Shown: in pieces, positions 6,814-23,588 of the stretch | Position numbering within the stretch: the first letter of the stretch is position 1 | Layout of the letters: every line of letters starts with the position of its first letter | Source of the DNA: Methylococcales bacterium | Lineage (GTDB): Bacteria; Pseudomonadota; Gammaproteobacteria; Methylococcales; Methylomonadaceae | Direction: 5' to 3' | Length of the DNA: 45,778 nt | Assembly: GCA_003584895.1 (NCBI GenBank) | Contig: QVQF01000118.1 | Location: 1 to 45,778 of the forward strand | Notes under the pieces: model-generated | Told to the model about the DNA's origin: nothing | The model's input: the letters and a program-made list of their open reading frames with translations, nothing else | The model's database searches: none | Made by a program: the position numbers and the translations under genes

Positions 6814-7896
6814 ATGATATTTAAGCAATTATTTGATCAAGAAACTTGGACTTACACTTATTTAATCGCTGATCCTTTTACTAAAGAAGCGGTATTGATT
6901 GATCCTGTCAACACTCATATAGAGGCCTATATTACATTGCTGGCCGCGCATGGTTTGCAGTTGAAATACACCTTAGAAACCCATGTACATGCTGACCACA
7001 TTACCGCCAGCGGTTTGTTACGCCAACGCTTGGGATCACAAACAGGTGTCAGCCAACTTTGTGGGGCAACAACTGCCGATATACAAATTCAAGACGGTGA
7101 TGTATTTGAATTTGCGGCTGGCGAACAGATTAAAGTGATCGCTACACCAGGCCATACCTCAGGCAGTATTTCTTATTTATGGCGTGATCGCCTATTTACG
7201 GGTGATTCGCTCTTAATTGGTGGTTGTGGTCGTACTGATTTTCAAGGTGGTGATGCTGGTGCGCAATATGATTGTATTACCCAACGCTTGTTTACCTTGC
7301 CGGACGAAACCTTAGTTTATCCAGGGCACGATTATCAACAACGTTGGGTGAGTAGTATTATGCAAGAACGTACGACTAATCCACGTCTAGCTGGAAAGTC
7401 GCGTGAGCAGTTTATTGAAATCATGAATAACCTGAACTTACCTAAGCCACGTTTAATTGATGAAGCTGTGCCTGCTAATCGTTATTGCGGCTTAGATGAA
7501 AATGAACGCCAAGACGCAGTTGCTGTAAGAGATGAACGTCCCTTGCGAGTGACCACAAAAACCGAAGATTTAGTGGCAGTTGCTAAGCAACAGGTTACTG
7601 AAGTTGATGTGGCTAAAGCTAAACAACTGTTAGCAGATGGTCATATAGTTCTAGTTGATACTCGTGAAGAAAGTGAATACGCAGCAGGGCATATAGAAGG
7701 TGCATTATTACTACCTAGGGGCGTACTGGAATTTAAAATAGGTGCTACGCCGGAATTAGCCGACATAGGCAAAAGCGTGCTAATTTATTGCCGCACAGGC
7801 GGACGCTCTGCATTAGCGGCACAAACCCTGCAACAACTGGGTTACACTAATGTTCTGTCTATGGCAGGCGGTTTTGAAGCATGGAAAAATACATGA
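6814..7896 (+). CDS. Persulfide dioxygenase-rhodanese fusion (ETHE1-like)
   Basis: The 360-residue protein fuses a metallo-beta-lactamase-fold persulfide dioxygenase (about 1-235) to a rhodanese domain (about 262-360). The dioxygenase part has the ETHE1 iron set: H57 in THVHADH (H57, H59, D61, H62), H114 (TPGHT), D131 (TGDSL) and H172 (YPGHD). The rhodanese part has the active-site loop YCRTGGRS with C326. The expected chemistry is glutathione persulfide plus O2 to sulfite, with the rhodanese domain exchanging sulfane sulfur between persulfide, sulfite and thiosulfate. It is cytoplasmic, with no signal peptide. It lies between two SQR genes that would supply persulfide and has its own sigma-54 promoter. 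Fusions of this kind are known in bacteria. Confidence 0.92.
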   Translation: MIFKQLFDQETWTYTYLIADPFTKEAVLIDPVNTHIEAYITLLAAHGLQLKYTLETHVHADHITASGLLRQRLGSQTGVSQLCGATTADIQIQDGDVFEFAAGEQIKVIATPGHTSGSISYLWRDRLFTGDSLLIGGCGRTDFQGGDAGAQYDCITQRLFTLPDETLVYPGHDYQQRWVSSIMQERTTNPRLAGKSREQFIEIMNNLNLPKPRLIDEAVPANRYCGLDENERQDAVAVRDERPLRVTTKTEDLVAVAKQQVTEVDVAKAKQLLADGHIVLVDTREESEYAAGHIEGALLLPRGVLEFKIGATPELADIGKSVLIYCRTGGRSALAAQTLQQLGYTNVLSMAGGFEAWKNT

Positions 7897-7902
7897 AGTA
7901 GA

Positions 7903-7931
7903 TTGGGTTAACAGATTTATAGTTAACCCAA
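7903..7931. terminator. Perfect 10-bp hairpin after the persulfide dioxygenase gene
   Basis: TTGGGTTAAC (7903-7912) and GTTAACCCAA (7922-7931) form a 10-bp stem with a 9-base loop starting 6 bp after the stop codon. No T-run follows, so it is either a poor intrinsic terminator or an mRNA 3'-end stabiliser. More GGGTT/AACC pieces follow to about 7975, so it may belong to a dispersed hairpin family. Confidence 0.5.
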
Positions 7932-7992
7932 CACATCGCGACTAAGTTGGGTTGTGAAAAGCATGCAGCCTAACCTACAAAACTATAACTCT

Positions 7993-8049
7993 TGGAGTGC
8001 AATAGCTTCAGCTATTGCTTTATAAAACAGCTAAAGCAGTTTTACTCCG
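7993..8049. repeat. Palindromic repeat family A, single copy
   Basis: This copy has the same two-hairpin unit as 641-696 and 728-783, with compensating changes in the first arm (CAATAGCT/AGCTATTG replaces TAATAGCT/AGCTATTA). The pairing is kept although the bases changed, which argues that the structure matters. It lies between the persulfide dioxygenase and SQR genes. Confidence 0.8.
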
Positions 8050-8154
8050 AACATACAAGATGCAGCCATTAATCTAATGGAACTACAAAAAGAACAAATA
8101 GCACCCAATAAAGAGAAGATATGCAAATCTTCCATTACACACTAAGAGGAAATT

Positions 8155-9408
8155 ATGACTACCCAACACCACACTTTACTCATCGTCGGCGGCGGCGCAG
8201 CAGGCGTTTCAGTTGCTAATAATATGCGACGTGTCAACGCAAACATCGATATTGCACTTATCGAGCCTTCAGAAAAGCATTATTACCAACCCGGTTTTAC
8301 TATTATCGGCGGTGGTGCTTATACCATGAAAGAAACTGTCCGTAATGAGGCTGATCTAATTCATTCCAGCGTTACTTGGATTAAAGACTTTGCCGAGACT
8401 TTTCAACCAGAAGCCAATACGATTACCTTGCGTTCTGGTGATACACACAGTTATGACTATCTAGTGGTCTGCCCTGGCTTACAATTAGATTGGGGTAAAA
8501 TTGAAGGTTTAAAAGACACGATAGGTCAAAATAATGTCTGTAGTAATTATTCTCCCGATACCGTGGAATACACTTGGGAATGTATAAGAAATCTGCAGTC
8601 AGGTACAGCCTTATTTACCCAACCGCCTATGCCGATTAAATGTGCCGGCGCACCGCAAAAAATCATGTATTTAGCGGCGGATCGTTTCCGTAAAAAACGT
8701 ATCCTAGATAAAATGAACATTGAGTTTTGCAATGCGGGGCCTGCAATGTTTGGCATCCCGTTTTTTGCTAAAGCCTTAAATAAAGTAGTGATAGGTTATG
8801 GTATTAAAACCAATTTCAACCATAATCTTGTTGCTATAGACGGCCCTGCTAAAACGGCTATTTTTGAAACGACGGATAGCGAAGGCAATAAACAACGGGT
8901 GACTAAAGCCTTTGATATGATCCATGTGACACCCCCACAAAGTGCACCCGATTTTATTAAGAATAGCCCTTTAGCTAATTCGGCAGGCTGGGTAGATGTT
9001 AATGACAAAACTTTGCAACATCATAAATTCAGCAATATTTTTGGATTAGGCGACGCAACATCAACACCCAATGCAAAAACTGCCGCAGCGGTACGTAAAC
9101 AAGTACCGATACTCGTTGATAATATTCTTCATTTGATCAAGAACCAGCCGTTAGCTGAAAAATATGATGGTTATGGTTCATGTCCACTAACCACCTCACT
9201 CAGTACAGTCATGCTGGCCGAGTTTGCTTATGGTGGCAAGATCACACCTTCATTTCCATTACTTGATCCTAGAAAAAATCTGTTCATTTGGTGGATAGGT
9301 AAAAAAATAGGTTTTCCTTGGATGTACTGGCATTTAATGCTTAAAGGATATCGCATAGATATTCCGCATTTAGAAAGCTATGCCAAACGTTTTATAAAAG
9401 AAGATTAA
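8155..9408 (+). CDS. sqr: Sulfide:quinone oxidoreductase, type II-like
   Basis: The 417-residue FAD flavoprotein would oxidise sulfide, pass sulfane sulfur to a thiol acceptor and reduce quinone. It has the N-terminal FAD-binding VGGGAAG (residues 11-17) and both cysteines of the type II (mitochondrial SQOR-like) active site: C163 in PIKCAGAPQK and C343 in GSCPLTTS. A late Rossmann motif (IFGLGDATSTPNAKTAAAVRKQ) is also present. The C-terminal region is rich in W/F (WWIGKKIGFPWMYWHLMLKG) as expected for monotopic membrane attachment. An AGAGGA ribosome site precedes the ATG by about 6 bp. Its product is the natural substrate of the preceding dioxygenase. It differs clearly from the type I-like enzyme at the left edge. 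Confidence 0.92.
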   Translation: MTTQHHTLLIVGGGAAGVSVANNMRRVNANIDIALIEPSEKHYYQPGFTIIGGGAYTMKETVRNEADLIHSSVTWIKDFAETFQPEANTITLRSGDTHSYDYLVVCPGLQLDWGKIEGLKDTIGQNNVCSNYSPDTVEYTWECIRNLQSGTALFTQPPMPIKCAGAPQKIMYLAADRFRKKRILDKMNIEFCNAGPAMFGIPFFAKALNKVVIGYGIKTNFNHNLVAIDGPAKTAIFETTDSEGNKQRVTKAFDMIHVTPPQSAPDFIKNSPLANSAGWVDVNDKTLQHHKFSNIFGLGDATSTPNAKTAAAVRKQVPILVDNILHLIKNQPLAEKYDGYGSCPLTTSLSTVMLAEFAYGGKITPSFPLLDPRKNLFIWWIGKKIGFPWMYWHLMLKGYRIDIPHLESYAKRFIKED

Positions 9409-11287: not shown

Positions 11288-12850
11288 ATGATTGCTGAAA
11301 ACGTGGTTGATCTATCGCGTTGGCAGTTCGCTGCTACATCGTTGTATCATTTTTTGTTTGTACCGTTAACATTAGGTTTGTCGTTTTTATTGGCGATTAT
11401 GGAATCAACCTATGTAATGACCGGTAAAGAAATTTATAAGGATATGACTCAGTTCTGGGGGAAATTATTCGGAATCAATTTCGCGCTAGGTGTCACCACT
11501 GGCTTAACGATGGAATTTGAGTTCGGTATGAACTGGTCTTATTTTTCGCATTATGTAGGTGATGTCTTTGGAGCCCCTTTAGCTATTGAGGGTTTAATGG
11601 CTTTCTTTCTGGAGTCGACCTTTGTAGGCCTATTTTTCTTTGGCTGGGACAAGTTAGGCAAAGGCCAGCATTTATTGATTACTTGGCTAGTTGCCCTAGG
11701 CTCCAATTTATCTGCTTTGTGGATATTGGTAGCCAATGGCTGGATGCAAAATCCAGTCGGTGCAGACTTTAATTACGAAACCATGCGTATGGAAATAACC
11801 AGCTTTTCATCGTTGTTATTTAATCCAGCTGCTCAGGTCAAGTTTGTCCATACCGTTGCCGCAGGTTACACCACAGCATCTGCCTTTGTGTTGGCTATCA
11901 GTGCTTATTACATGTTGAAAGGTCGGGATGCCGCTTTTGCTCAACGATCTTATACGATTGCCGCAGGTTTTGGTCTGGCGGCTATTTTGTCAGTCATTGT
12001 TCTGGGTGATGAAAGTGGTTATACCGATGGCGAGGTACAAAAAGTCAAACTTGCTGCCATTGAAGCTGAATGGCATACCGAAGCTGCGCCGGCCGCTTTT
12101 ACCGCTATCGGCATTCCTGATCAAGATGCCATGGAAACTCGTTATGCCGTTAAAATTCCGTGGGTATTGGGTTTAATTGGGACGCGTTCTGTTGATGAAC
12201 CAATTACCGGCTTAACCGAAATATTAGAAAAAAATCGATTGCGAGTACGTAATGGCATGAAAGCCTATGCGTTGTTACATGAGTTAAGGCAAGGTAAAAG
12301 AGATGACGTAACCTTGACGGAGTTTGACCGCTACAAAACAGATTTAGGTTATGGATTATTGCTTAAACGATATACCGAAGCAGTTGTTGATGCGACTGAT
12401 CAGCAAATAGAGTTGGCTGCTCAATATTCTCTACCTAGAGTCGTGCCGTTATTCTGGACATTTCGAGCCATGGTGGCGTGTGGCTTTATTATGTTGGCGG
12501 TGTTTGTTTTTGCGGTTATTGCCAGCTCCATAAGACGTTGTAGGCAAACGTGGTTGTTAAAACTTAGTCTTTATACGCTGCCTTTGCCTTGGATAGCCTG
12601 CGAAACCGGTTGGTTTGTTGCCGAGTTTGGCCGTCAACCCTGGACTATTGCAGAGATTTTACCAACCTTCCTAAGTGCGTCCTCGTTAACCGAGTTGGAT
12701 TTGTATCTCAGTTTGGCAGGTTATTTGGGTTTATATACGGTCTTTCTGATTATCGAAATGTTCTTGATGCTTAAGTTTATTAAATTAGGGCCCAGCAGCT
12801 TGCACAAAGGCCGCTATCATTTTGAAATTGCCAAAGGAGCTGCATTATGA
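11288..12850 (+). CDS. cydA: Cytochrome bd ubiquinol oxidase subunit I
   Basis: The 520-residue haem-bearing subunit of the bd quinol oxidase reduces O2 to water at the inner membrane. Haem ligands by comparison with E. coli CydA: H21, H188 and M395. The quinol-site residues K254 and E259 sit in [13 protein letters not shown], and the signature GRQPW is at 448-452. The Q-loop is of the long E. coli type. A strong GGAGG lies 4 bp before the ATG, and TATAAT at 11268-11273 may be the -10 box. Its TGA overlaps the cydB ATG. bd oxidases tolerate sulfide better than haem-copper oxidases, which suits the neighbouring sulfide oxidation genes. Confidence 0.97.
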
Positions 12851-13986
12851 TTTTTGATTATGAAACGCTGCGTTTGATTTGGTGGGCCTTGTTAGGGGCA
12901 TTATTAATTGGCTTTGCTATCACTGGTGGTTTTGATTTAGGGGTTGCAATTTTATTACCTTTTTTAGGTAAAAATGATACAGAACGCCGAGTGATTATTA
13001 ATTCCATAGGCGCGACTTGGGAAGGCAATCAGGTTTGGTTTGTAACAGCCGGTGGTGCTTTATTTGCTGCATGGCCTATGGCTTACTCAGTGGCATTCTC
13101 TGGATTTTATTTTGCCTTATTATTAACCTTATTTGCCTTGTTTATGCGGCCGATTGGCTTTGATTATCGCAGTAAATTACCTAGCCAACGCTGGCGTAGT
13201 AACTGGGATATAGCCTTGTTTGTAGGGGGCTTTATCCCAGCTTTAATTTTCGGCGTCGCCTTCGGTAATTTATTAGAAGGCGTGCCTTTTCATTTTGATG
13301 ATGAAATGCGTAGTTTTTATACAGGTTCATTCTGGGCGCTATTAAATCCTTTTGCATTGCTTGCCGGATTAATTAGCGTAAGTATGCTAATTATGCACGG
13401 TGCAGTTTTTTTACAGATAAAGACGGTCGATGCTATTAATCAACGCTGCAAACAAATGGTCACGGTTTTTGCCTTAATTACAATGGCTCTGTTTGCTTTA
13501 GCGGGCATCTGGATTGCCAATATCAATGGCTATCAAATCACTTCTGAAATATTACCTAATGCACCGTCTAATCCCTTAACAAAAATAGTTACTAAAGGCT
13601 TAGGTTTATGGCTAGCTAATTATGCACATTATCCGGTGTTATGGGCAATTCCTGGGTTGGCTTTTATAGCAGGCTCAGCAACCATCATACTTTCAAAAAT
13701 TAAACGTCCAGGACTAGCCTTTATAAGTAGTTCGTTAACATTGACTTCTGTCATTTTAACGGCTGGCGTTTCTATGTTCCCTTTTTTGATGCCCTCAAGC
13801 TCGGTGATGAACAGTTCATTGACGGTTTGGGATGCCAGTTCCAGTCTGACAACTTTAAAAATCATGTTCTGGGTCACCATGGTATTTTTACCCATCATCA
13901 TCATTTACACCAGTTGGGTGTTTCGTGTATTGCGCGGAAAAATTACCCAAGAACACATACACAACAACGATCATAGTGCTTATTAG
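12847..13986 (+). CDS. cydB: Cytochrome bd ubiquinol oxidase subunit II
   Basis: The 379-residue integral membrane partner of CydA starts with the typical [25 protein letters not shown] segment and carries the conserved [35 protein letters not shown] region near residues 30-60. About eight further hydrophobic segments follow. It overlaps cydA by four bases (ATGA) and is followed after 9 bp by the cydX-fusion gene, whose ribosome site AGGAG overlaps the cydB stop codon. Length and sequence are canonical. Confidence 0.97.
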
Positions 13987-13995
13987 GAGACGGTT

Positions 13996-14568
13996 ATGTG
14001 GTATTTCACTTGGATATTAGGCTTATTACTGGCGTGTTCATTAGGTATTATCAATGTGCTGCGCCTAGAAGCTCAAGAAGCTTGGGACAAAGAGCATATC
14101 TCTTTAGACCCCTTGACGCAGTTGATGAATAAAGATTCGATGATAGGGCGCTTAAAAGAAAAAGTGGATAACTCTAGGCTAAATGGCTTTCCCTTTTCTA
14201 TTCTGACTATTAATCTAACGGGCTTTAGTGAACAAAATGAGTTTTTGGATTACGAGGTCGATACAACCTTGCGTAATGTTGCTGACTATCTAAAAGAGGA
14301 GGTTAGGGCTGGTGTTGATATCGTCGCGCGCATGGATAAGCAAACCATTTTAATAGCCATGCCCGGTTTGCCAGTAAAAACAGCTGAACAGACGGCCTCA
14401 CGTTTTAAACAGGATATTTTTAACAAAGTAAAAGCACCCAAAAATCTAGCAGTAGAGGTTGCTGTGTTGGTTGCTCAGTATCCAATTAATGATAGCGCCT
14501 TTACTACGGTATCTAAGGAAGTGGAAAATTTACTTCAAATGGTCTGCAACAAAACACATACGGTGTGA
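13996..14568 (+). CDS. cydX: CydX small subunit fused to a degenerate GGDEF domain
   Basis: Residues 1-30 (MWYFTWILGLLLACSLGIIN, then LEAQEAW) are a full CydX, the single-helix subunit that stabilises cytochrome bd; E. coli CydX is only about 37 residues. Instead of stopping, the frame continues for ~160 residues that align with a GGDEF domain: DPLTQLMNK at 38-46 (usual DxLTGLxNR), FSILTINLTGF at 67-77 (usual DxDxFK region), TTLRNVADYLKEEVRAGVDIVAR at 90-112, then MDKQTILIAMPG where (L)GGDEF is expected. All five GGDEF residues and the metal-binding Asp are replaced, so cyclase activity is very unlikely. There is no internal stop or frameshift sign. Position and ribosome site are those of a normal cydX. 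The role is unknown; sensing or scaffolding is inference. Confidence 0.88.
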   Translation: MWYFTWILGLLLACSLGIINVLRLEAQEAWDKEHISLDPLTQLMNKDSMIGRLKEKVDNSRLNGFPFSILTINLTGFSEQNEFLDYEVDTTLRNVADYLKEEVRAGVDIVARMDKQTILIAMPGLPVKTAEQTASRFKQDIFNKVKAPKNLAVEVAVLVAQYPINDSAFTTVSKEVENLLQMVCNKTHTV

Positions 14569-14990
14569 ATGCTCTCATGATACAGAAAATAGGCAATAAG
14601 TTGATCGATGGTTTTCATTACCTTGCCCTATTTGGCATAGGCTCGACTATCGTTTGGACCGCTGTCCATGATTATATGGCCATGATGAAATCAGGGCATG
14701 CGACACTAGAAGACATACTATTATTGTTTATATATCTCGAACTAGGTGCGATGGTTAGTACTTATTTTAAAACTCATCGCTTACCTGTGCAGTTTGTTAT
14801 TTATATCGCCATCACTGCACTATCTCGTCATTTGGTTATTGATGTTCAAAAAGTAGCAGATAACTTTCATCTATATTTACTGATGACGATAACCTTAGCT
14901 ATTGCCATACTCAGTGTATCTATTTGGTTGCTATCTTATACCGCTAAATCTTTTGGTTGTCCGGATGATTTGGGTACGAAAGATAGTTAA
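14565..14990 (+). CDS. psiE: PsiE-family membrane protein
   Basis: The 141-residue protein has four hydrophobic segments and the family pattern LALFGIGSTIVW, DILLLFIYLELGAMVSTYF and AITALSRHLVIDVQK (phosphate-starvation-inducible PsiE family; molecular function unknown). The frame starts with GTG at 14565 overlapping the TGA of the cydX-GGDEF gene; an ATG at 14577 is an alternative start. The overlap suggests co-translation with the cyd operon. It is about the length of E. coli PsiE (136). No Pho box is visible, so regulation with cydAB rather than by phosphate is likely here. Confidence 0.82.
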   Translation: MNALMIQKIGNKLIDGFHYLALFGIGSTIVWTAVHDYMAMMKSGHATLEDILLLFIYLELGAMVSTYFKTHRLPVQFVIYIAITALSRHLVIDVQKVADNFHLYLLMTITLAIAILSVSIWLLSYTAKSFGCPDDLGTKDS

Positions 14991-15079: not shown

Positions 15080-16162
15080 ATGCACAGTGCTTCCACAGTA
15101 ACTCAAAAATCAGCTTTCTCTTCTGTAACTCAGATTAACAATTGGACGCTCTTAGGACTTTCCATGCTAGGTGTGCGTCTGGTTCAGGGATGGGTTTATT
15201 GGGCAGGTGCTAGTAGACGACTTATTTATAGCGAGGGCAAGCTTGATCCAAGCTCAAGTGAATACATGGCGTATGAAATGAACAAAACGATACCAGGTGC
15301 AATTTTTGGCTCCGGTGATGCGCTTAGTTATTTGATGCACTCTCCTTCATTATTGCACATGGCGATTATTGTATTCACGCTAATCGAATTATTTGTTGGT
15401 GTTGGCTTGATACTCGGTTTATTTACACGCTTTTTTGGATTAATCAGCGTTTGTTTGGCTATCTCTCTTATGTTGATGTACGGTTGGCTCGGTTCTACTT
15501 GCGTTGACGAATGGACCATGGCAGCCAATAGTTTTGCTATGGGCTTGGGTATAATGACCACTGGGAGTGGTCGTTGGTGGTCTATGGATTATTGGTTGTT
15601 GAATAAGTACCAAAAATGCTCGGAATGGTCTATATTTCCATGGTTGTTTAGTGGTCCATTGCCTATCATAACCATAACGCGTTTCGCTAAGATAGGTGGG
15701 GTTATGACCATTTTATTTGCTGCTGGTTTTTATGGATATTTACGTGGCGCTGTTTTTAGTCCGATGATGGCAAAAACTAACCCTAAAAATCATCATATCG
15801 CACTCACTCATTCTGAACTTTCAAGATCAGGTGACTTAATATTTTCTGCCTATGTGGATGCTGGGCCCGACACCCAAGGTGCTTATGTTGTTGGGGTCTC
15901 TATTATTGATGAACAAGGACAAGAGATAGAAGTCTGGGACGGAAAGACTCTCAACGAATTATCAAAAACAAATTTTGAAAACGAATATAAATATTCAACT
16001 TTCGAAACAACACAATATGGTTTCGTAGGTGTAGTTGGTGCACGCGCTAAAATTTTTTTACCTCACCAAAAACAGATAGATCTGGCGCCTGGAACTTATC
16101 AGGTAATACTCTTGAGTATCGATGGAAAACTTTGGAGTACGCATAGCATCATTGACGGGTAA
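15080..16162 (+). CDS. doxDA: Thiosulfate:quinone oxidoreductase, DoxD-DoxA fusion
   Basis: The 360-residue protein has an N-terminal DoxD/DoxX-type membrane domain (about 20-240; LGVRLVQGWVYWAGASRRLIY, a substrate-site-like SGDALSYLMHSP, and helices around FTLIELFVGVGLILGLFTRFFG). A C-terminal soluble DoxA domain follows (about 250-358), beta-rich, with QGAYVVGVSIIDEQGQEIEVWDG. In Acidianus DoxD and DoxA form thiosulfate:quinone oxidoreductase, which makes tetrathionate and reduces quinone. Fused forms occur in bacteria. An AGGA lies 9 bp before the ATG. It follows psiE by 89 bp and may be transcribed with it. It is the last plus-strand gene of the sulfur island. Activity on thiosulfate is by homology. 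Confidence 0.85.
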   Translation: MHSASTVTQKSAFSSVTQINNWTLLGLSMLGVRLVQGWVYWAGASRRLIYSEGKLDPSSSEYMAYEMNKTIPGAIFGSGDALSYLMHSPSLLHMAIIVFTLIELFVGVGLILGLFTRFFGLISVCLAISLMLMYGWLGSTCVDEWTMAANSFAMGLGIMTTGSGRWWSMDYWLLNKYQKCSEWSIFPWLFSGPLPIITITRFAKIGGVMTILFAAGFYGYLRGAVFSPMMAKTNPKNHHIALTHSELSRSGDLIFSAYVDAGPDTQGAYVVGVSIIDEQGQEIEVWDGKTLNELSKTNFENEYKYSTFETTQYGFVGVVGARAKIFLPHQKQIDLAPGTYQVILLSIDGKLWSTHSIIDG

Positions 16163-16183
16163 TAAATTATGTGGACTAGTAGG

Positions 16184-16210
16184 TTGGATTGCGTGCTGTT
16201 CGCAATCCAA
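16184..16210. terminator. Bidirectional hairpin between doxDA and cydC
   Basis: TTGGATTGCG (16184-16193) pairs perfectly with CGCAATCCAA (16201-16210) across a 7-base loop, followed on the plus strand by TGTTATTTTG. It lies midway in the 61-bp gap between two convergent genes, where it could terminate both. Confidence 0.6.
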
Positions 16211-16223
16211 TGTTATTTTGCAT

Positions 16224-17918
16224 TCAATGGATTAGTGATGAAACACGGGGGCTAACTATAATCTTTGTTAAAACACCTAATTCCATTCTGTAAACAGTAT
16301 CAACCAAACTTAAACCCGATTCCCTGTGTGTGACCATAATCAGGGTTTTATTAACAGCAAACTTTGCTAATTCGTTAAATATCTCTATTTCAGTTTCTGA
16401 GTCTAAGCCCTCGGTGGGCTCATCTAAAATCAATACAGGGGCATTTTTAAGATACAGTCGTGCTAGAGCTATGCGCCTTGCTTCACCTCCTGATACTTTT
16501 AAGCCACTTTCTCCTACCCAAGTGTCGATGCCTTCGGGTAAATAGCTGATGAGTTTTTCAAGCCCTGAGGCTTTAATCGCGGCATTGAGTTCAGCCATCG
16601 TTGCCTTCGGTTTAGCGATTAATAGGTTTTCTTTAATGGTTGCAGCGAATAACTGACTGCGTTGCGACAACATACCAAAGTTGAGTAATAAGTCATCGCT
16701 ATCGAAGTGCCTGAAGTTTTGTCCGTTTAAGAAAAGCTCCCCTTGTTGTGGATCGAAATAGCGCATTAATAGCTGTAAAAGACTAGTTTTACCTGAGCCA
16801 CTGGCACCGATAATGGCGATTTTAGTGCCTTGTGGAATACTTAAGTTGATGTTCTTAAGTACCCAGTCATGATTGGCTGAATACCGAAAGCTTACGTCAG
16901 TTAGTTGTAAATCATAGTTGTCGGGTATGACTAATGGCTGTTTCGGATGGATAATAGAAGGTGAAAGTTCTGCAACCTGTCTAATTCGGCTCGCTGCTTT
17001 TTGGGTTTTAGCCAGCATTTGCATGGCTTGCGGCAAGGGCGTTACTAACTCGAATGCCGCCATGACACAAAAAATAATTAGCGCTAATTCTGAGCCTGAT
17101 AATAGCTCGTCTTGAAAGGATATAGCAGCTAGCACTAAGGCGGTTAGTAATGTGATTTGTGATAATAATAAAGTGAGAGCCGAGGACATGGCTGTTAAAC
17201 GATTATTTTGGCGCTGGGTATTAATCATTAAGTTAGATAATTGTTCCAATACCCGACTAAAGCGCCTGAAAGCTTGATTAGCCAGCAAATCTGATAAGCC
17301 CTGTAGTAGGTCAATTTGTCGAATTCTAAAGCTGGCTGCTAGCGCGACTATGGCTTCTGCGCCAGCTAGGCCTAAGCGATTAAATAACCAGGGTGTCGCT
17401 ATGGTGGCTATCAATAACAGTGAGCCAGTAGTTAAGCTGATTAACGGCGAATAAAGATATAAAAAGCCAACTACAGTGGGTACTCCGAGCGCAGCAACCA
17501 GAGCAGGTGCTAATAGACGCAGATACAAGGCATCCAAAGCATCGATATCTGATGTCATGTTGGATAATAAGTCACCACTACGTAATGCTGCTAAACGCCC
17601 GGGAACTAAAGGAATCAGTTGTAGGAAAAACCAACTGCGTATACTTGCTAATACTCGAAAAGTAGCTTCATGGGTCAGTAGTCGCTCACCATAACGGCCT
17701 ACAGTTCGGGTAATGGCTAGTGCGCGAATTTGGGCGGCGGGTAACATAAAGTTAAAGCTAATAGCCGTACCAGCTAGTGCAGAAGAACTGATAAACCAGC
17801 CTGATAGCGTTAATAGGGCGATAGATGCAAAGGCTGTTAGCAGTGATAACAATATGCCAGCCACTAACCACATACGGTGTGGTTTGAACAATGTTAGAAA
17901 AAACCAAAGATCTTTCAT
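16224..17918 (-). CDS. cydC: Heterodimeric ABC exporter subunit CydC
   Basis: The 564-residue half-transporter has six membrane helices in the first ~310 residues, then an ATPase domain. Walker A is GASGSGKTS (about residue 372), the signature is SGGEARRIALARLYL and Walker B is VLILDEPTEGLD. With CydD it exports reduced thiols (cysteine, glutathione) to the periplasm and is required for mature cytochrome bd. Its start overlaps the cydD stop by four bases, so the two are co-translated. In E. coli cydDC lies apart from cydAB; here they are neighbours in convergent orientation. Thiol export may also link to glutathione persulfide handling, which is speculative. Confidence 0.93.
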   Translation of the reverse strand: MKDLWFFLTLFKPHRMWLVAGILLSLLTAFASIALLTLSGWFISSSALAGTAISFNFMLPAAQIRALAITRTVGRYGERLLTHEATFRVLASIRSWFFLQLIPLVPGRLAALRSGDLLSNMTSDIDALDALYLRLLAPALVAALGVPTVVGFLYLYSPLISLTTGSLLLIATIATPWLFNRLGLAGAEAIVALAASFRIRQIDLLQGLSDLLANQAFRRFSRVLEQLSNLMINTQRQNNRLTAMSSALTLLLSQITLLTALVLAAISFQDELLSGSELALIIFCVMAAFELVTPLPQAMQMLAKTQKAASRIRQVAELSPSIIHPKQPLVIPDNYDLQLTDVSFRYSANHDWVLKNINLSIPQGTKIAIIGASGSGKTSLLQLLMRYFDPQQGELFLNGQNFRHFDSDDLLLNFGMLSQRSQLFAATIKENLLIAKPKATMAELNAAIKASGLEKLISYLPEGIDTWVGESGLKVSGGEARRIALARLYLKNAPVLILDEPTEGLDSETEIEIFNELAKFAVNKTLIMVTHRESGLSLVDTVYRMELGVLTKIIVSPRVSSLIH

Positions 17919-19654
17919 GACACTAACCGTCCTTCTTTAATGACGACTTTTCTATCCATGCGCTTGATAACGTCATTATCATGACTGGCAATAATCAGGG
18001 TTTTATCCTTAAATAAGTCATCAATGATATCTAGTAATAGCATTTTATTAGTAGCATCGAGATTAGCGGTGGGTTCATCCAACACTATAATTTCTGCATC
18101 TTTTAAAAAAGCTCTAGCTAAGGCGATACGTTGTATTTGCCCACCGGATAAACCATAACCGCGCTCACCTATCTGGGTGAACAAGCCCTCAACTAAGTGC
18201 GAGCTGAACTCAGTTACTCCGGCAGCTGTTGCAGCGGCAATAATGCTTCGATCAGAGGCTTCTGGATTGGCCAGAGTAATATTGTCTCTGATACTGCCAT
18301 GGAAAATATAAGTCTGTTGACCAACCCACGCGAGGGTTATTGCGGCTTGCTCAGGAGTGACTGATTGTTCTTCAAGTAAAACTAATCCCTCGGTGACAGC
18401 TTCAAAACCTAAGAGTAGATTTAATAGCGTTGTTTTCCCTGCCCCCGATTCACCGACCAGAGCAATCTTTTCGCCCGCGTTAATGTGAAGATTGATATCG
18501 GTTAAAACCTGTCGTTGGCCATATGATTTGCTTGTATGCCTAAACTCGATAATAGAATTAAATGTTTCATTTGCGATTGATGCGCTTCCTACGTCGGCAC
18601 ATCCTATGCCATTAAATACTTCAGTGTCTTGTTCCAGAATATTGAGGATGGCATCAGCCGCACCCAAGGCGGCGGCTTTATCATGATAAAAAATAGCCAA
18701 TTGCCTGAGCGGCATAAAAAACTCAGGCGCTAACAGCAGCACAAACAAAGCCTCGTTTAAGCTGATCTGTTGGGCCGGGCCAAAATGAATCTGTCCCAAT
18801 AAGCCTAAACCTACATAGACAGCCACTAGGGCAACGGCAACGGCACTAAAAAACTCCAAAATAGCCGAGGATAGAAAAGCAATACGCAATACCGCCATAG
18901 TTTTCTCCCGAAAACCATCGGCGATGTGATTGATGTTGGCCAGTTCGTGATAGGCCTGACCAAATAATTTCAGAGTGGCTAGGCCCTGCATGCGGTCCAG
19001 AAAGTAACCGCTCATTCGAGTCATCGCCAAAAACTGATTGCGATTGGCGGAAGCAGCACCCATACCGACTAAAGCCATAAAAACTGGCACTAAAGGTCCT
19101 GTCAGCAAAAATATTAAGCCTACGACCCAATTGATAGGCATGACTACGGCAATCATGATGATGGGTAATACGCCAACTATCGTATGTTGAGCTAGATACC
19201 GAGAGAAATAGTTTTCTAGTGCATCGACTTGCTCTAAGGTAATGGCGACCAGTTCCCCGCTTTGTCGTTGTTTGATAGCAGCAGGGCCTAGGGATGCAAA
19301 CTGATTGATTAACTGCTGTCTTACCGAGGTTCTAACCTTGGCGCTTGCTTCAAAGCCACAAGTTTGATGAAAATAGACGCAGACACTACGCAAGATAAAA
19401 ACACTTGCAAGCCATAAAAAGCTAGGCATTAGTAACAGCCAATGGAGCTTATCAATGATAAGTGCTTGCAGGATGTAAGCCAACAATGCCGATTGGACAA
19501 TGATCGCTAGACCATTAATAATGCCTGCGATAGCAGCTAATAAAACAGGTTTACGAACGGTTTTACTTTGCTTTTTTAACCAACTTGCACATATTTTTTC
19601 CCTTTGCTTATGTTCATCGAAAAAAGATTGATTGTCTGTTTCTGTAAGTTGCAT
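17915..19654 (-). CDS. cydD: Heterodimeric ABC exporter subunit CydD
   Basis: The 579-residue partner of CydC has N-terminal membrane helices to about residue 330, then an ATPase domain with Walker A GESGAGKTT (about residue 400), signature LSGGQIQRIALARAFL and Walker B IIVLDEPTANLD. It is the promoter-proximal gene of cydDC on the minus strand. No purine-rich ribosome site precedes the ATG at 19654, which is unusual among these genes, but no better in-frame start is near. The upstream region has AT-rich -10-like hexamers (TATTAT, TATAAA read on the minus strand) without a convincing -35. Confidence 0.93.
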   Translation of the reverse strand: MQLTETDNQSFFDEHKQREKICASWLKKQSKTVRKPVLLAAIAGIINGLAIIVQSALLAYILQALIIDKLHWLLLMPSFLWLASVFILRSVCVYFHQTCGFEASAKVRTSVRQQLINQFASLGPAAIKQRQSGELVAITLEQVDALENYFSRYLAQHTIVGVLPIIMIAVVMPINWVVGLIFLLTGPLVPVFMALVGMGAASANRNQFLAMTRMSGYFLDRMQGLATLKLFGQAYHELANINHIADGFREKTMAVLRIAFLSSAILEFFSAVAVALVAVYVGLGLLGQIHFGPAQQISLNEALFVLLLAPEFFMPLRQLAIFYHDKAAALGAADAILNILEQDTEVFNGIGCADVGSASIANETFNSIIEFRHTSKSYGQRQVLTDINLHINAGEKIALVGESGAGKTTLLNLLLGFEAVTEGLVLLEEQSVTPEQAAITLAWVGQQTYIFHGSIRDNITLANPEASDRSIIAAATAAGVTEFSSHLVEGLFTQIGERGYGLSGGQIQRIALARAFLKDAEIIVLDEPTANLDATNKMLLLDIIDDLFKDKTLIIASHDNDVIKRMDRKVVIKEGRLVS

Positions 19655-22164: not shown

Positions 22165-23588
22165 ATAAGCGCCAACTTAAGGAATAGCCCCTTTAAAAAT
22201 CAATAAGTAGACGCATATCGGTAATTTTTTAATGAGATATGCTAATTCCACCTAAATCACAAGACATCAGCTTTGAAGAATTTCTGAAAGTGTTGCCCAC
22301 CGATTATCATGAAATGGCTTATGAATTCAAAGCGTTTACGCGAAGCCGTAAAATTAAATCGCCCGCTCAATTATTACAAGTCGTCATGATTTATTGCGGA
22401 TTGGACAATGTTCTTAGAGAAACAGCGGGCGTGTTTACGCTCCAAGAAGAACCGATTACGGACACCGCTGTTCACAAACGCTTAAAAGCGTGTGAGCCAT
22501 GGCTAAAAGCGCTGTTAATGAATCTGCTACCTACTGGAAAAAGCGTACCAACATCGCTTCGGATATTGGTGGTCGATGGCTCATCTTTACAAGGGCCAGG
22601 TACTAAAGGCACCGATTATCGCCTGCATTTAGCGTTGAACTTGGTGAGTATGTCGCTACATGAAATTCAGGTGACGGGTGCCAATCAAGGCGAAAGCCTG
22701 AGCCGCTATAATTTTGCTAAAGGTGATGTGGTAATGACTGATCGTGGTTACAATCATCCTGCGACCCTTCTTGACCTTAATGCCCAAGAGGTGGATGTAT
22801 TATTACGGTTACTACCAACCGCCATGCCATTATATTTTCGTCAGGTAGGCCAATTAGCTTGTGAGCCTCTGCCAGAATTACGGTTAAACATAGCCGACTA
22901 TCTTCGGAAGGCGACTAGCGATTTAGTCAGTATACCGATATGGCTGCACAGTAAAGGACGCAGTTGTTCGGGCATGGTTCATGCGCAACGCTTGCCGCCA
23001 GAAGTAGCAGAAGCAGCGAGGCGCCGTTGTCGGCAGGACGGCAGCCGGAAAGGACGAACCCCAGCACAGGATACTTTATATTTAGCCGGCTGGCTCATGG
23101 TCTTCACTACCGTATCCGAAGAGATTATGGCGGCTTCGACTGTCATCGAATTGTATCGAACTCGTTGGCAAGTCGAACTGGTTTTTAAGCGTTTAAAAAG
23201 CCTGTTGGATCTGGACTTACTGCGCCCCCCAAAAGATAGCTTGTTAGGTAAGGTGTGGATTACTGGGAAATTATTATATGCTACCGTTATTGAGCGCCAT
23301 GTATATAAACGTTTTGGTCATGACTGGAATCAGTTCGATCAAATTCGGATGACAACACCTTGGCGGCTATTAAAAGTAGTGCATTCCTTAATAAACTCGT
23401 GGATTATTGAAACGCATCGTTGGTGTCTAGCTAATCAGTCGGATTGCTTTAAAGTACTTATGGAGCGTCCACGTCGTCGTGCATTGCAGGTACTACCAGC
23501 CGAGGTGGCAAGTTTGCTGAAACTATCAAATAAATTGAATCAATGTTCCAACATAATTTGATGTGTTTAACCTTAAGTTGGCGCTTAT
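22165..23588 (+). mobile_element. IS4-family insertion sequence, complete
   Basis: The element is 1424 bp with perfect 18-bp terminal inverted repeats, ATAAGCGCCAACTTAAGG (22165-22182) and its complement (23571-23588). It is flanked by identical 13-bp direct repeats GGGTTACAAACCC (22152-22164 and 23589-23601). Because the target is itself a palindrome, the boundary can slide: up to 22 bp of inverted repeat with a shorter duplication gives the same sequence. Size, 18-bp ends and 10-13 bp duplications match the IS4 group. Intact ends, duplications and open frame point to recent insertion. It carries only the transposase. Confidence 0.93.
22239..23561 (+). CDS. IS4-family DDE transposase
   Basis: The 440-residue transposase would cut and paste the surrounding element. 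DDE residues are visible: D113 (VVDGSS), D168 (MTDRGY) and E313 inside the IS4 signature Y306-x2-R309-x3-E313-x6-K320 (YRTRWQVELVFKRLK). The frame is uninterrupted and at normal family length. The ATG at 22239 sits 57 bp inside the left inverted repeat and the stop is close to the right one. Confidence 0.95.
   Translation: MLIPPKSQDISFEEFLKVLPTDYHEMAYEFKAFTRSRKIKSPAQLLQVVMIYCGLDNVLRETAGVFTLQEEPITDTAVHKRLKACEPWLKALLMNLLPTGKSVPTSLRILVVDGSSLQGPGTKGTDYRLHLALNLVSMSLHEIQVTGANQGESLSRYNFAKGDVVMTDRGYNHPATLLDLNAQEVDVLLRLLPTAMPLYFRQVGQLACEPLPELRLNIADYLRKATSDLVSIPIWLHSKGRSCSGMVHAQRLPPEVAEAARRRCRQDGSRKGRTPAQDTLYLAGWLMVFTTVSEEIMAASTVIELYRTRWQVELVFKRLKSLLDLDLLRPPKDSLLGKVWITGKLLYATVIERHVYKRFGHDWNQFDQIRMTTPWRLLKVVHSLINSWIIETHRWCLANQSDCFKVLMERPRRRALQVLPAEVASLLKLSNKLNQCSNII

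Follow-up and report, generated by a model that had tools for sequence, protein, structure and literature searches.

What does a GGDEF-type domain do on the smallest subunit of a terminal oxidase? Cytochrome bd, an oxidase of high affinity, enables bacteria to respire at very low oxygen, and methanotrophs with cytochrome bd limit methane release. The question is raised by a contig of a Methylococcales bacterium (QVQF01000118.1; the window, by which we mean the whole stretch of 45,778 nucleotides analysed here), where the gene behind cydB codes in a single frame for CydX and a degenerate GGDEF domain. We suggest that the domain has no catalytic role and serves cytochrome bd as a regulatory or docking module, a reading to which we assign a probability of roughly 0.55. 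Its ligand, its partner and its effect on respiration have not been shown.

The fusion gene and its operon

The features of the operon are collected in Table 1. The fusion ORF starts 9 bp past the stop codon of cydB and is preceded by AGGAG. With hmmscan its N-terminal part scores 54.1 bits against the CydX family PF08173 (cut-off 26.2) and the later part 50 bits against the GGDEF family PF00990 (cut-off 23.8); the E-values of 1.6e-14 and 3.7e-13 are far beyond chance. The NCBIfam models agree (TIGR02106 for CydX, 50.4 bits at a cut-off of 31.6; TIGR00254 for GGDEF, 48.3 bits at a cut-off of 37.4). When the PDB sequences were searched, residues 1-29 matched E. coli CydX (6rko_X, E = 4.8e-7), residues 38-164 a diguanylate cyclase (5m3c_A, E = 1.5e-7) and residues 37-141 PleD. 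The initial annotation had described a complete CydX helix that continues into a domain alignable to GGDEF proteins and had proposed the two Pfam searches as a check. Both profiles match the ORF above their curated cut-offs and the description holds.

Table 1. The cyd operon of the window and the parts of the fusion protein
Feature	Position	Strand	Evidence
cydA, cytochrome bd subunit I	11288..12850	+	PF01654, E 6.7e-166; sole PF01654 match of its genome
cydB, cytochrome bd subunit II	12847..13986	+	PF02322, E 1.4e-100; TIGR00203 above cut-off
cydX-GGDEF fusion gene, 190 aa, single frame	13996..14568	+	ORF plus profile matches
CydX part, residues 1-27 (predicted helix runs on to residue 33)	13996..14076	+	PF08173; structure model
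Degenerate GGDEF domain, profile match over residues 37-161 (structural match reaches the C-terminus)	14104..14478	+	PF00990; fold matches
R104-A-G-V-D108, R and D aligned to the PleD I-site RxxD, one residue inserted	14305..14319	+	R and D in 63/63 fusions
D114-K115-Q116-T117-I118, replacing the GG(D/E)EF signature	14335..14349	+	Alignment to PleD
Gene of a PsiE-family membrane protein, 4-bp overlap with the fusion	14565..14990	+	PF06146, E 3.2e-22

CydA of the window has 520 aa, and its best NCBIfam match (NF011677) stays under the cut-off of that model. In profile searches of the genome the CydX models matched nothing but the fusion, and CydA likewise has a single match. Since the sole CydX match thus accompanies the sole CydA match, the oxidase, if functional, most likely carries the GGDEF domain, as far as gene content can tell.

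A same-strand PsiE gene lies within 900 bp in 22 of the 58 fusion loci with enough downstream sequence, and PsiE is also found behind a bd operon with separate CydX (L113). Farther away in the window, genes at 6814-9408 and 15080-19654 appear by eye to be related to sulfide or persulfide; they look like genes for a beta-lactamase-rhodanese, an SQR-like flavoprotein, a SulP and a DoxD-like protein. On the opposite strand, 16224-19654 presumably carries CydCD-like ABC exporter genes, again judged by eye. The frame at 22239-23561 resembles a transposase, by eye of the IS4 kind.

Predicted structure and geometry

The AlphaFold2 model of the fusion, made from 26 homologues, is of moderate confidence (pLDDT 76, about 58 for residues 31-40; pTM 0.62). 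It predicts a helix from residue 2 to 33 followed by a helix/strand domain. Foldseek matched the model to 5llx_A (E = 1.6e-10) and VIA to PleD (2v0n_A, Z 19.6, 181 residues, rmsd 4.6 Å), to 3ign (Z 19.5, 149 residues, rmsd 2.2 Å) and to FimX (3hva_A, Z 18.5, 148 residues, rmsd 2.2). The best 50 matches of each structure search are all, by title or known identity, GGDEF or diguanylate cyclase proteins. A structure comparison had been proposed as a further check of the GGDEF likeness, and the predicted fold does match GGDEF structures.

The DxLT start of the domain (D38) is found at the identical residue in all 63 complete fusions described below, so that the spacing from helix to domain is invariant. 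The CydX residues are nearly invariant in the homologue alignments, and Glu25 is fully so in one of them (A2). The C-terminal part of E. coli CydX is reported to be cytoplasmic (PMC6853902). By analogy, the GGDEF part should be cytosolic, as a non-catalytic module on the oxidase. The fixed position of D38 together with the geometry of CydX implies that it should lie close under the membrane at a constant distance, where it would adjoin the cytoplasmic end of CydA. That the domain is physically part of the oxidase, as had been proposed, therefore stands as an inference only, which is supported by the single CydX match beside the single CydA match and by the nearly invariant CydX residues.

Distribution of the fusion

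In a sample of 301 Methylococcales genomes, at least 64 genomes from at least 14 of the 50 genera carry the full-length fusion (E = 8.5e-69 or better). Apart from these, the matches listed include a second copy in G016 (7.2e-73), clipped by the contig end, as well as a broken one in G226 (from 1.7e-35) and a partial match in G257 (6.9e-35); ordinary GGDEF proteins begin at 1.7e-23, again among the matches listed. A CydX match was obtained in 185 of the 301 genomes. The 64 fused genomes have one CydX match each, with the exception of G018, which has two, both fused. The initial annotation had called for a genome survey of the domain pair next to cydB: this is where the fusion resides, as 62 of the 64 distinct fusion genes sit 8-15 bp behind cydB. 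At many loci identity to the window's copy is about 75-85% for CydB and about 53-62% for the fusion. The two full fusions of G018, a single-contig genome, are located at 1818148-1818708 and 3143763-3144323 of contig C1, each behind its own cydB (L124, L134).

By record name the fusions belong to Methylobacter, Methylomonas and other Methylococcaceae or Methylococcales, except for two MAGs named "Gammaproteobacteria bacterium" (L065) and "uncultured Epsilonproteobacteria bacterium" (L044). Named strains with the fusion include Methylobacter tundripaludum SV96 (L064) and OWC-G53F (L047). The nearest matches suggest that the window itself comes from a Methylobacter-like genus. In the class sample no fusion and no match at E = 1e-23 was found in 368 other genomes (three of those listed are of the same order), and in the phylum sample no fusion was found in 397 other genomes; these two samples overlap in part. 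One genome of the phylum sample, G787, matched the GGDEF part only (residues 35-185, E = 4.8e-24).

Could the fusion be a sequencing or assembly error, or the relic of a decaying gene? The broken copy of G226 (L073) and the partial match in G257 are of the kind that such an explanation would predict. Against it stand 64 distinct fused sequences, 63 of them complete, from many assemblies and in part from named strains, which rule out a missed stop codon or a MAG error, as well as an omega of at most 0.37 in each of 187 pairs (see below). We regard this explanation as refuted. Homologues with a separate CydX had been named beforehand as evidence that would speak for such an error. In the genus of the window, a CydX match is present in 28 of 35 genomes, and 24 of these 28 are fused (one, G033, is clipped by the contig end). 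The remaining four (G001, G003, G010, G026) do have a separate CydX of 32 aa, but it lies beside another cytochrome bd, with a CydB of no more than 50-52% identity. Of the 15 listed non-fused CydX matches in frames of 85-189 aa, the 14 that were fetched (all except G148) proved to be CydX of 46-52 aa with a frame that is open upstream.

In the broken fusion of G226 (L073, 5142-6118; L189 is on the same contig), an internal deletion and a frame change have left a CydX frame of 75 aa, with two copies of the C-terminal half of the GGDEF part close by. This lineage, a near relative of the window, retains cydA and cydB. The GGDEF domain may be dispensable there.

Selection on the domain

We estimated omega by the Nei-Gojobori method for window residues 31-190 and, in a wider test of 59 fusions, for the 187 pairs whose dS was usable; the pairs are not independent. 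After residue 30 of the fusion omega ranges from 0.03 to 0.37 with a median of 0.18, and for CydB of the same pairs from 0.03 to 0.15 with a median of 0.095. The value of the domain is below that of CydB in just nine of the 187 pairs. Purifying selection clearly acts on the GGDEF part, if in general less strongly than on CydB.

Compared with L032, L033, L034 and L035, the domain of the window has omega values of 0.041, 0.032, 0.034 and 0.061, and CydB of 0.072, 0.081 and 0.072 (L032, L033 and L035). In these comparisons dS is near saturation for L035, and undefined values were left out; the omega of 0.18 between L033 and L034 rests on three synonymous and two other changes after residue 30, which is too few. 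The idea of a stricter constraint on the domain than on CydB had to be rejected, since it held only among the closest relatives and is contradicted by the medians of the 187 pairs. Such strictness is special to the close relatives of the window and a few other close pairs. The GGDEF part has evolved unusually slowly in L032-L034 (omega 0.03-0.04) when set against the family median.

A loosely constrained accessory role of the domain would fit these values too. One could also imagine that the domain merely caps CydA and CydB on their cytoplasmic face, aiding assembly or stability without receiving a signal. The membrane-to-domain spacing fixed in 63 of 63 fusions and the purifying selection are in line with a cap, as is the need of the E. 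coli oxidase for CydX in assembly or stability, reported in PMC6853902 and PMC8585947. Other bd oxidases, however, manage without the domain with a separate CydX of 32-53 aa. We consider a mere cap rather unlikely and prefer a regulatory or docking module.

Active site and I-site

Residues were counted in an alignment of the 63 complete distinct fusions and 14 ordinary GGDEF sequences. The PleD residue numbers used are consistent with the PleD sequence. The metal Asp (D327) corresponds to N73 of the window protein; the column has Ser in 51 and Asn in 12 fusions. In the stretch aligned to the GGEEF motif of PleD, the second Gly (G369) is Gly in none of the 63, and the column of E370 contains Gln in 34, Asp in 10 and Glu in 8. 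The motif GG(D/E)EF is absent from all 63 complete fusions. The C-terminal Lys/Arg columns for the triphosphate are gaps in the window protein and mostly gaps in the family (Lys in two fusions, Arg in none). The match above the GGDEF family cut-off might still be taken to mean that an active diguanylate cyclase is tethered to the oxidase. With metal Asp and second motif Gly missing in 63 of 63 and the signature in none, this can practically be dismissed: judged by its residues, the fusion domain is no diguanylate cyclase. The loss of the signature residues and of the metal Asp, which the initial annotation had claimed for the window protein, is confirmed by the alignment to PleD and extends to the 63 homologues. 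Its view of the domain as a non-catalytic GGDEF relative is likewise borne out by the profiles, the predicted fold and the purifying selection on these homologues.

Might the domain bind c-di-GMP instead of making it? R104 and D108, which align to R359 and D362 of PleD, are invariant (63/63), although the catalytic residues are lost. The RxxD criterion of the I-site is, however, not met, as the spacing is R-x-x-x-D in all 63 fusions, one residue too many; only L027 (RREID) also fits RxxD when counted from its second Arg. The secondary I-site positions of PleD are R313 and R390. The former aligns to N59 (Asn in 60/63) and the latter to residue 136 (Arg in 22/63). Moreover, the aligned Arg and Asp are common in the ordinary GGDEF sequences (12 and 13 of 14), so that their conservation may be structural. 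Of the base-contact positions N335 and D344, the columns are partly retained (Asn in 40/63 and Asp in 50/63). The evidence on nucleotide binding is thus mixed: the catalytic pocket appears destroyed, and the I-site Arg and Asp are invariant yet too far apart. In view of the spacing and the secondary positions, and without binding data, binding of c-di-GMP by the fusion domain is possible but cannot be predicted with confidence.

Several residues are conserved in the fusions and untypical of the 14 ordinary sequences, namely K56 (61/63), N59 (60/63), E87 (62/63) and G106 (60/63), and P66-F67-S68 is retained in 62-63 of 63. The alignment suggests that these residues form a specific surface.

By gene content the genome of the window makes and breaks c-di-GMP, as it has six other GGDEF matches and five EAL matches (one of these at a contig start). 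It has no PilZ match at E = 0.001, and five of 14 control genomes had one. Judged by these matches, the organism probably produces c-di-GMP without having evident receptors for it, which is suggestive only. A receptor in which c-di-GMP at the altered I-site changes the activity or assembly of the oxidase would fill this place and would profit from the invariant R104 and D108. Given the spacing and the absence of binding data we hold it to be possible but doubtful. Just as tentative is the idea that c-di-GMP or another cytosolic nucleotide at the remodelled I-site gates cytochrome bd directly via a rigid helix. If this were true, a nucleotide-gated CydX domain would wire second-messenger signalling into the oxygen respiration of methanotrophs.

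Origin of the fusion

The first CydB tree was built from 102 of 119 rows, thinned at 93% identity; the tree test used a hand-picked subset, with 30 of the 48 fused rows and 24 of the 54 separate ones. The row of the window (L182, clipped inside the fusion) and the broken L189 were counted as fused. The fused operons form one branch together with L111, a MAG with a separate CydX of 37 aa (support 100/97). The free tree nests L111 with the deepest pair of fused rows (94/77); of 200 bootstrap trees, just 5% unite the fused rows without any other. A tree with a single fused clade is no more than 0.87 log units worse than the free one and is not rejected (p-AU 0.477). One origin of the fusion is therefore likely but not shown; one gain with a later loss, or two gains, are compatible with the free tree, and this remains open. 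For L111, the row with separate CydX nearest to the fused operons, inspection by eye revealed no GGDEF gene directly downstream among frames of at least 100 aa. The five fusions with Trp at residue 23, as in ordinary CydX, include the deepest ones L027, L071 and L072.

Proposed role

We propose the following arrangement. The fusion would function as CydX, with a helix that packs on CydA in the usual way and emerges on the cytoplasmic side into the dead GGDEF domain. The domain, held at a constant distance from the membrane, could then serve as a built-in regulatory or docking module for this cytochrome bd. Most likely it would bind a protein partner, which may be another GGDEF-containing protein, a second oxidase or the cytosolic face of CydA or CydB. 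A guanine nucleotide in the altered I-site might control partner binding, through which the oxidase would be tuned or placed. The homologies, the predicted fold, the loss of catalytic residues, the conservation, the purifying selection and the operon position have been demonstrated for the fusion; its regulatory or docking role, its incorporation into the complex and its cytosolic location are inferred, and there are no data on expression, binding or activity.

A signalling-type domain on the smallest oxidase subunit, retained in at least 14 genera, is a sign that the terminal oxidase is controlled or placed directly. One group of methanotrophs would then have a means of controlling or placing a respiratory enzyme that has not been described.

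Comparison with known systems

We found no description of a CydX-GGDEF fusion in the literature on CydX, cytochrome bd, GGDEF proteins and methanotrophs, most subscription papers being outside the scope of the search; the initial annotation knew of no described case either. The 2014 survey of CydX reports a variable C-terminal region of up to 44 aa, and the words "fusion", "fused" and "GGDEF" are absent from its main text (PMC4325964). A genome study of Methylobacter states that most of the genomes studied carry cytochrome bd and names CydAB(X); its main text does not contain "GGDEF" (PMC12810054). GGDEF proteins are counted in one section of the Methylospira genome paper and bd oxidases in another (PMC6956133).

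With CydX (YbgT, of bd-I) and AppX (of bd-II) of E. coli the fusion has the N-terminal helix and the family models in common. Its position is also the same, as E. coli cydX sits after cydB in the operon. The E. coli proteins have only 37 and 30 aa, according to PMC6853902 and PMC8585947, compared with 190 aa for the fusion. Trp23, a dimer contact of AppX (PMC8585947), is Arg in 58 of the 63 fusions and Trp in five. The fusion shows that a soluble module can be anchored by CydX, a protein that has been examined as a helix alone.

FimX of Pseudomonas aeruginosa, a structural match to our model, has a degenerate GGDEF domain as well, which a review lists as GTP-sensing (PMC8846402). In FimX this domain is a sensory part and FimX controls a phosphodiesterase, whereas the partner of the fusion domain would be a terminal oxidase, and there are no nucleotide-binding data. 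PopA and CdgG are degenerate GGDEF receptors of c-di-GMP. Receptors of this kind resemble the fusion in their dead active site and retained I-site residues, but they have RxxD in place of the R-x-x-x-D found in all 63 fusions, for which binding data are lacking. Membrane-anchored diguanylate cyclases, finally, consist of a transmembrane helix, a short signalling helix and a GGDEF domain. The fusion shares this order of parts and the helix running to DxLT; in contrast, its transmembrane helix is an oxidase subunit and its enzyme part is dead. The fusion is thus made of known parts in an undescribed, conserved joint.
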